From Candidatus Gugararchaeum adminiculabundum (lineage in GTDB: Archaea; Micrarchaeota; Micrarchaeia; Burarchaeales; Gugararchaeaceae), in the NCBI GenBank assembly GCA_902384795.1, contig CABMDC010000010.1, positions 1-64,000 on the forward strand: a stretch of DNA of 64,000 nt, written 5' to 3'. Position 1 is the first letter of the stretch, and each line of letters begins with the position of its first letter. Shown here piece by piece: positions 55,675 through 58,012 of the stretch. The translations under genes and the position numbers were made by a program. The notes under the pieces were generated by a model. It did not search any database. It was not told the DNA's origin and was given only the letters and a program-made list of their open reading frames with translations.

Positions 55675-56022
55675 TTACTTTTTCCTGTAGCCGAATTTTT
55701 TGTTATACTCGTCATGGTCTAGAATGTCAAGGATTACTATGGCGATTTCTGCGTCTTTGGCTTTGATGGTATAGAGCATTCTCCAGAAATTTGGAAGTTC
55801 GACCCTGAATAAGTTAGTCACATTGTACTTTAGAATATATTCCTGGGGTATGAGGCTTTTTGCAATTGAATCGCCATAATGAATATCTGCCTTGATTAAA
55901 TCTGATTTCTTCTTTAATCCATTAAGGATTGATCTGCTAATTTTGGACGTAGGCGCCTGTTTTTCTAAAACAGAGTACGCCTCGCTTGCTTCAGGAGAAG
56001 GGACTATGACGGTAGATTTCAT
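55675..56022 (-). CDS. Probable RelE-like toxin of a second toxin-antitoxin pair
   Basis: 115 residues: a helical start (SEAYSVLEKQAPTSKISRSIL), then FRVELPNFWRMLYTIKAKDAEIAIVILDILDH and NKKFGYRKK, the beta sheet plus basic end of RelE-type ribonuclease toxins. An SD-like GGAGATT lies before the ATG, which overlaps the antitoxin stop by 4 nt. It stands at the other end of the window from the purN-associated pair. Confidence 0.65.
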   Translation of the reverse strand: MKSTVIVPSPEASEAYSVLEKQAPTSKISRSILNGLKKKSDLIKADIHYGDSIAKSLIPQEYILKYNVTNLFRVELPNFWRMLYTIKAKDAEIAIVILDILDHDEYNKKFGYRKK

Positions 56023-56327
56023 AATCTCCTGCCCGTAGCTATAATCCGATTCAAATTAGGATTGTCATTGTATACCCAAGTAATTCCCTTTAGGCTGACA
56101 ACTATTTTGTTGCCGGATTCCAGATATAGCAGAATTGCCCGAAGAGTATTATGATTGACTTGCCTTGGAAGCAACCGTTTTAATTCAGCGATTGTCAACA
56201 GGCTTTCATCAGCATTCTTTAGCGTTTCTTCCACCATCAGAATTGTTTCAAGCGTTGGCGAATGAACGGATTGAGATGCGGATTTTCGCAAATGCGCACT
56301 GGACGGGCTTTTTTTTAGGAAAACCAT
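56019..56327 (-). CDS. Probable antitoxin with winged-helix-like region
   Basis: About 102 residues from the ATG at 56327 (109 from an upstream start at 56348). SLLTIAELKRLLPRQVNHNTLRAILLYLESGN and IVVSLKGITWVY match a small archaeal helix-turn-helix family seen beside RelE-like toxins. Gene overlap with the toxin and an inverted-repeat operator at its start (56328-56358) fit an autoregulated module. Confidence 0.65.
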   Translation of the reverse strand: MVFLKKSPSSAHLRKSASQSVHSPTLETILMVEETLKNADESLLTIAELKRLLPRQVNHNTLRAILLYLESGNKIVVSLKGITWVYNDNPNLNRIIATGRRL

Positions 56328-56358
56328 AGTTATCACCTTTTGATACAAGTTGATAACT
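56328..56358 (-). promoter_or_regulatory. Inverted-repeat operator of the second toxin-antitoxin pair
   Basis: Perfect 8-bp inverted repeats AGTTATCA (56328-56335) and TGATAACT (56351-56358) are separated by 15 nt and touch the antitoxin ATG. A TATA-like tract (about 56374-56383, minus strand CTTATATAC) lies just upstream. The position suits repression by the antitoxin. Confidence 0.55.
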
Positions 56359-56401: not shown

Positions 56402-57139
56402 TTACTTCTTCTGGTTCTCCAGAGCTTTTCGAACCAATTCCAAAAATAGCGGAGCCGGCTTTTCCAATCTGCTCTTGAATTCCGGGTGAGCCTGGGTCGC
56501 AATCCCGAACTGGCCCGGCCATTCGCAAATTTCAGTAATGTCTCCTTTTTCAGTTGTGCCCGAGATGATGAGTCCGGAGTCCTTGAGCTTCTGGACATAT
56601 TCTGGGTTGACCTCATACCTGTGCCTGTGGCGCTCGGAAATTGTTTCTTTTTTGTAAATATTGTGAGCAAGAGTGCCTTTCTGCACTTTCACGCTCCAGG
56701 CACCGAGCCTCATGGTTGCCCCCTTGTCAATTATGCGTTTCTGCTCCGGAAGAATGTCAATCACTGGATGAGGGGAATCTTTGTTGAATTCAGTTGAATT
56801 GGCATCTTTTAATTTTGCCACATTCCTTGCCCATTCAACTACCATCAGCTGCATTCCAAGGCATAGTCCCAGGAAGGGAATCTTGTTTTCACGGGCGTAT
56901 TGGATGCACTGGATTTTTCCCTCTGTTCCACGAGCCCCGAATCCCCCCGGAGTAATCAATGCGTCAACATCTTTCAAGGCGGCGGCTGCGGTTAATTTGC
57001 CGTCTTCAATGTGAGTTGTTTCAACCCATTTTAATTCAACTTCGCAGTCCAAATGAGCGCCTGCATGGCGCAGTGATTCATGGATTGAAACATAGGCATC
57101 GCGCAGCGCTGTGTATTTGCCGGTAATTGCGATTTTCAC
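56402..57139 (-). CDS. pyrG: CTP synthase, glutaminase (GATase) part, separated by an in-frame TAA
   Basis: 245 residues beginning at the GTG at 57139 (MKIAITGKY; this is Val in the fused reading). It is the C-terminal GATase domain of CTP synthase: nucleophile in LGLCLGMQLMVVEWARNV, and the His/Glu pair in AHPEFKSR. The 15 codons between the TAA (57185-57187) and this GTG read EWSKLVGRIIKPSKK, exactly the linker of normal PyrG, in the same frame. So this half can be made by restart at GTG, or only as part of a readthrough product. Ammonia made here is needed by the synthetase half. Confidence 0.9.
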   Translation of the reverse strand: MKIAITGKYTALRDAYVSIHESLRHAGAHLDCEVELKWVETTHIEDGKLTAAAALKDVDALITPGGFGARGTEGKIQCIQYARENKIPFLGLCLGMQLMVVEWARNVAKLKDANSTEFNKDSPHPVIDILPEQKRIIDKGATMRLGAWSVKVQKGTLAHNIYKKETISERHRHRYEVNPEYVQKLKDSGLIISGTTEKGDITEICEWPGQFGIATQAHPEFKSRLEKPAPLFLELVRKALENQKK

Positions 57140-57184
57140 TTTCTTCGAGGGTTTTATGATTCTGCCAACTAATTTGCTCCATTC

Positions 57185-58012
57185 TTACAGGTCATGCTTC
57201 TTTGTTTTCAGGTCAAGCGACTTGGTTATTATTTCCCCGACATTTGCTTTTTCGAATAATTCCGGGAGCTCGTAAATTGTCTTTAGGTCCGGATCGTCGA
57301 TCACTGCCTCGGTCGGAACACCGCAGAAGAGCGAGATTTTTTCCTTTACTTCCTTGCCCAGGGGCTCGGTTTCCCTGCAGATTACCAAGTCAGGCTTTAT
57401 TCCCAGCGAGAGAATTAGGCGGTTCGCGTGCTGTGTTGGCTTGGTTTTCTGCTCGCCGGTTGTTTCCATCATGGGAACATAGGTGAGCTGGACAAAGAAC
57501 ACTTTTTCCTCGTTCTTCAGCTGGCGCATGGCCTCAATGAAATAGGAATTTTCCAAGTCTCCGACCGTGCCGCCAACTTCAATTATTACAACATCGGCCT
57601 TGCGCTTTTCCCCGACCCCGCGCACCCAGTCCTTGATTTCATTGGTGAGATGGGGGACGATTTGCACGTCGCGCCCGAGGAATTCGCCGCGCCTTTCCTT
57701 TTCAATTATTTTCTTGAAAATCTTGCCGCCTGTGATGCTCGAATCGCCATCAATGTCAATGTTCAGGAAGCGCTCGTAGGTGCCGAAATCCATGTCGCAT
57801 TCCGTGCCATCGTCAAGAACGAAAACTTCGCCGTGCCTGTAGGGGTTCATGGTTCCGCAGTCGACATTAAGATAGCCGTCGAATTTGATCGGGATTACGC
57901 TGAGTCCCTTGGCCTGGAGAATTTTTGAGATAGAAGAAGAGACGATGCCCTTGCCCAGCCCGCTCATCAACGAGCCGAGTATGACGATATACGCACGGTT
58001 GGAAGTCTGCAT
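57185..58012 (-). CDS. pyrG: CTP synthase, amidoligase part, ended by an in-frame TAA
   Basis: 275 residues, ATG at 58012 with a TATA box (58033-58042) 26 nt upstream. It is the N-terminal synthetase domain: LGSLMSGLGKGIVSSS (P-loop), KFDGYLNVDCGTMNPYRHGEVFV, GGTVGDLENSYF and QTKPTQHANR-type UTP-site motifs (KTKPTQHANR). It ends KKHDL then TAA, where ordinary PyrG continues through the linker. Alone it could make CTP from free ammonia but not glutamine. The downstream domain is in the same frame (see 56402-57139). Confidence 0.92.
   Translation of the reverse strand: MQTSNRAYIVILGSLMSGLGKGIVSSSISKILQAKGLSVIPIKFDGYLNVDCGTMNPYRHGEVFVLDDGTECDMDFGTYERFLNIDIDGDSSITGGKIFKKIIEKERRGEFLGRDVQIVPHLTNEIKDWVRGVGEKRKADVVIIEVGGTVGDLENSYFIEAMRQLKNEEKVFFVQLTYVPMMETTGEQKTKPTQHANRLILSLGIKPDLVICRETEPLGKEVKEKISLFCGVPTEAVIDDPDLKTIYELPELFEKANVGEIITKSLDLKTKKHDL

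Follow-up and report, generated by a model that had tools for sequence, protein, structure and literature searches.

An in-frame TAA in the interdomain linker of a Micrarchaeota pyrG gene is best read as a sporadic nonsense change in an ordinary CTP synthase gene

Introduction

In the metagenome bin of Candidatus Gugararchaeum adminiculabundum (Micrarchaeota), the gene for CTP synthase, pyrG, carries a TAA between its amidoligase and glutaminase domains, and the reading frame is open on both sides of it. This raises the question whether CTP synthase is made as two proteins in this archaeon, whether the stop codon is read through, or whether an ordinary gene has been hit by a stray change, either in the cells or in the assembly. 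The window, i.e., the whole stretch of DNA that was analyzed, comprises 64,000 nucleotides of a bin of 1.47 Mb in 26 contigs with an estimated completeness of 93%.

Results

An in-frame TAA divides pyrG in the interdomain linker

The gene is located on the minus strand of the window and consists of the following features:

58012-56402, minus strand: whole pyrG frame, 537 codons with one internal TAA (direct translation)
57185..58012, minus strand: 5' part of pyrG, amidoligase (synthase) domain, 275 aa from the ATG start to the TAA (PF06418 match)
57185..57187, minus strand: in-frame TAA, codon 276 of the 537 codons of pyrG (direct translation)
57140..57184, minus strand: remaining interdomain linker, 15 in-frame codons EWSKLVGRIIKPSKK, aligned with relatives and a solved CTP synthase
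56402..57139, minus strand: 3' part of pyrG, class I glutaminase domain with a possible GTG restart at 57139-57137 (PF00117 match)

Translation of the minus strand confirmed that the TAA directly follows KKHDL, as the sequence-only reading had claimed, and that the 15 linker codons continue without frameshift into V(GTG)KIAITGKY at the start of the glutaminase part. The part upstream of the TAA matched the N-terminal amidoligase domain of PyrG (CTP_synth_N, PF06418; 3e-106, residues 8-268), and the downstream part matched the glutaminase domain (GATase, PF00117; 6e-37, residues 303-527 of the read-through protein) and carries the Cys motif GLCLGMQ and the HPE motif. Since the TAA lies between these two domains, it is placed in the interdomain linker, which in the CTP synthase of E. 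coli comprises residues 267-286 (PMC9138612). The codons downstream of the TAA had been described as an intact PyrG linker, and they indeed align with the linkers of relatives and with that of a CTP synthase of solved structure.

The read-through protein matched the PyrG model TIGR00337 end to end with 718 bits and a single TAA, and could be aligned over its whole length with solved CTP synthases. No frameshift, no second internal stop and no other sign of decay were observed in the frame, so the earlier description of one nonsense codon dividing an otherwise intact gene was right. As a full domain is open in the same frame on either side of the TAA, the arrangement is not due to chance. The protein resembles known PyrG (TIGR00337; PF06418 and PF00117) in the order of its domains, the position of its linker and its similarity from end to end, with up to about 66% identity to PyrG of Micrarchaeota relatives. 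It differs from these by the in-frame TAA in the linker: the two domains, which in PyrG share an uninterrupted polypeptide, are separated at codon 276 of the assembled sequence.

Codon 276 is a sense codon in related pyrG genes

A protein search identified named relatives mainly among Candidatus Micrarchaeota bins, and the aligned pyrG genes were about 46-66% identical to that of the source bin. In these alignments, codon 276 corresponds to a variable linker site, which is Lys in 42 sequences, with Ala, Glu, Gly and Asp among the more frequent alternatives. An alignment of related pyrG genes had been proposed as a check, and it gave a sense residue, most often Lys, at the site of the TAA; a stop was present in the source bin alone and in none of the aligned relatives.

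The comparison was extended to a phylum sample of 245 genomes; in 191 of them a pyrG match scored above the family cut-off. Within the listed matches of full length, a stop was found only in the source bin (TAA) and in another Micrarchaeota bin, G137 (TAG), and a second split in the linker was not found. The TAG of G137 lies inside the amidoligase domain (EVAE*SNADVV), where it could not result in a working two-part enzyme, and the many other genomes of its genus with listed pyrG matches all have uninterrupted copies. A partial pyrG at the start of contig C70 of G246 does have a linker TAG (PDLKE*KKLVER), but only eight codons separate it from the end of the contig and the downstream half is unseen; it was not accepted as a conserved split. 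Most of the other short matches were likewise due to contig ends, and the partial pyrG of G232 is interrupted by a frameshift. A natural split that is conserved in relatives was rejected on these grounds. In about 14 of the 96 good-quality genomes of the sample a pyrG match was missing.

These results bear on the possibility that the TAA is fixed and that a separate amidoligase and a GTG-started glutaminase assemble as a two-subunit CTP synthase. In archaeal GMP synthetase, glutaminase and synthetase are separate proteins encoded by separate genes that are conserved across lineages, and the analogous arrangement for PyrG would be a class I glutaminase domain with a coding sequence of its own. 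The stop is positioned at the domain boundary, both domains have intact frames and family matches, an in-frame GTG is located 16 codons downstream of the TAA just before KIAITGKY, and G246 also has a stop in the linker. However, the split of GMP synthetase is conserved, whereas that of pyrG is seen in one bin, with neither conservation nor a ribosome-binding site, no second linker split could be identified among the listed full-length matches, and the downstream half in G246 is out of view. The restart at GTG 57139 that the sequence-only reading had offered is possible: the in-frame GTG is present, but a Shine-Dalgarno-like motif in front of it is absent. This motif is also absent from the normal pyrG start and is only weakly enriched genome-wide (29% versus 21% in shuffled sequences), which lessens the weight of this point. 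Overall, a two-subunit enzyme in a lineage where the TAA is fixed is considered very unlikely, and only a very small chance is given to a naturally split CTP synthase that assembles in trans and was caught at or soon after its founding nonsense change. A literature search, with many journals outside its coverage, gave no report of a naturally split CTP synthase. If the split were real and fixed, CTP synthase would be shown to function as two separate chains, which would be relevant to the way in which glutamine amidotransferases become fused or separate again.

No dedicated decoding machinery or signal accompanies the TAA

Alternatively, the TAA could be read through or recoded, which would restore full-length PyrG. 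The frame is unbroken past the TAA, and several genes of the source bin contain internal stops, of two kinds (see below); both points speak for this option. Against this, TAA is an ordinary terminator: 142 of 394 long frames in the sample terminate with it, as does pyrG itself, and the interruptions are caused by both TAA and TAG. PylS was absent from the whole genome; the control search gave a match above the cut-off in one named genome. The sampled stretches, 823 kb out of 1.47 Mb, revealed no suppressor tRNA. The RNA after the TAA was no more structured than shuffled sequences (z 0.44), and Rfam gave no match above the gathering score near pyrG. Programmed readthrough, one of three options offered in the sequence-only reading, is unsupported by these results and was rejected; any decoding of the TAA as sense is hardly credible.

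Single stops interrupt other genes of the same bin

Further stops with coding-like sequence on either side were judged by eye in about 56% of the genome (some 823 kb out of 1.47 Mb), including the window. Most of the output consisted of ordinary neighboring genes or antisense frames, and two further clearly interrupted genes were identified. The first is trpA, with an in-frame TAG on the minus strand of contig C15 at about 8393; in seven relatives this site is Lys (five sequences), Glu or Arg. The second encodes a long repetitive beta-helix surface protein with an in-frame TAA between similar repeats, on the minus strand of contig C7 at about 25305, for which the label right-handed beta-helix (NosD-like) was assigned by eye and not by a family search. 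Including pyrG, three single stops of two kinds (TAA and TAG) were thus found in unrelated genes within 823 kb. That trpA and the beta-helix gene are interrupted inside single domains also argues against a two-subunit CTP synthase.

To compare with a relative, 374 of its ORFs were searched in the source bin, where 97 were matched. The pyrG stop was recovered, and upon inspection the remaining alignments that contained stops were antisense frames, repeats or gene edges. No frameshift was flagged among the 97 matched reference ORFs, which indicates that the assembly is not generally poor. As a random substitution in pyrG was computed to create a stop in about 4.3% of cases, the three stops suggest roughly 70 substitutions in 823 kb, or about 1 in 12 kb. 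This rough estimate is probably a lower bound, since the scan was conservative, and such a frequency is plausible for the consensus of a bin.

EF-2 was considered as a control for background stops and was dropped. The only interrupted copy among those listed, on contig C11 of G058, contains its TAA in an insertion of ∼12 codons in the P-loop (HGK-...-TTLSD) and, since this is not a nonsense substitution, gives no background rate. Rough stop counts showed no significant difference between pyrG and EF-2.

A sporadic nonsense change in an ordinary pyrG best explains the TAA

Because a stop is absent from the site in relatives and similar stops occur in trpA and the beta-helix gene, a sporadic single-base nonsense substitution in an ordinary pyrG is favored as the explanation of the TAA, with a probability of about 0.87. 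The TAG within the amidoligase domain of G137 also speaks for this reading. A variable linker codon of an ordinary full-length Micrarchaeota pyrG would have received one such substitution; the simplest case is a one-base change of a Lys codon to TAA. The change could be an error in the metagenome-assembly consensus or, in the sampled population, a mutation that is recent or carried by a minority, so that two of the three options mentioned above both remain. We infer that codon 276 was ancestrally a sense codon and that its change to a stop serves no programmed function. The TAA looks like neither a programmed nor a conserved device, nor like a new way of making CTP synthase.

The position of the stop exactly in the interdomain linker, together with the linker stop of G246, speaks against a sporadic change and gives mild support to a split. 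The linker holds 16 of the 182 codons of pyrG that are one step away from a stop, so a sporadic stop would fall in the linker by chance in about 9% of cases.

Of the two possible sources, a consensus error is put slightly ahead of a recent mutation. Many pseudogenes with internal stops are assembly errors, dependent on coverage and assembler (PMC11017572). The pyrG of the source bin resembles the cases described there (Cooley and Wright, 2024) in that a single stop occurs in an intact conserved gene and that several such stops are present per assembly; it differs in that reads were at hand for those genomes, whereas for the source bin the analysis covered the consensus. Against an assembly error stand the lack of flagged frameshifts and the minority of good Micrarchaeota bins without a pyrG match, which make a real loss possible. 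Indeed, since about 14 of 96 good genomes are without such a match and loss thus appears tolerable in the lineage, a genuine mutation is quite possible. Cells in which the TAA is real would make an amidoligase-only protein, which could use free ammonia, and little or no glutaminase part, barring a restart of ribosomes at the GTG.

The biological form of a sporadic nonsense change is real decay of pyrG, with CTP or cytidine obtained from a host or the surroundings, so it shares part of its probability with the main reading. The minority of near-complete Micrarchaeota bins without a pyrG match and the interruption of trpA are consistent with such decay. On the other hand, the rest of pyrG is free of decay, frameshifts and second stops, the genome, at 1.47 Mb, is rather large compared with others of its class, and the gene is single-copy: no second pyrG was identified in the source bin, in which the only other match was a weak 25-bit glutaminase-like stretch. 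Decay is regarded as a minority possibility, with clearly less than even odds.

More generally, caution is advised with isolated in-frame stops in metagenome bins, as these are often one-base noise, and relatives together with other genes of the same bin offer a quick test for stray stops.

Additional observations

At the window start (1-162), a frame ends with SKQKTLGEF, which is PIP-box-like, and contains a TAA at 37-39 after 12 codons. As base 1 of the window is base 1 of the contig, only these 12 codons precede the TAA, and a search of 40 relatives gave no credible homolog of the frame (best E 0.07). The second possible case of an in-frame stop, which the sequence-only reading had placed here, found no support.

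Between prs and pyrG, two small overlapping ORFs are located on the minus strand (window 55675-56348). By size and arrangement they look like a toxin-antitoxin pair, with a sub-threshold ParE-like match (E 0.04).

In EF-2 of G168 (contig C39), an intein-like insertion (CVSGKTRL...FIHN) was observed in the P-loop at HGK/TTLSD, the same place as the insertion of G058. The insertion of G168 reads as a full intein, and that of G058 is perhaps an intein remnant or a small intron.
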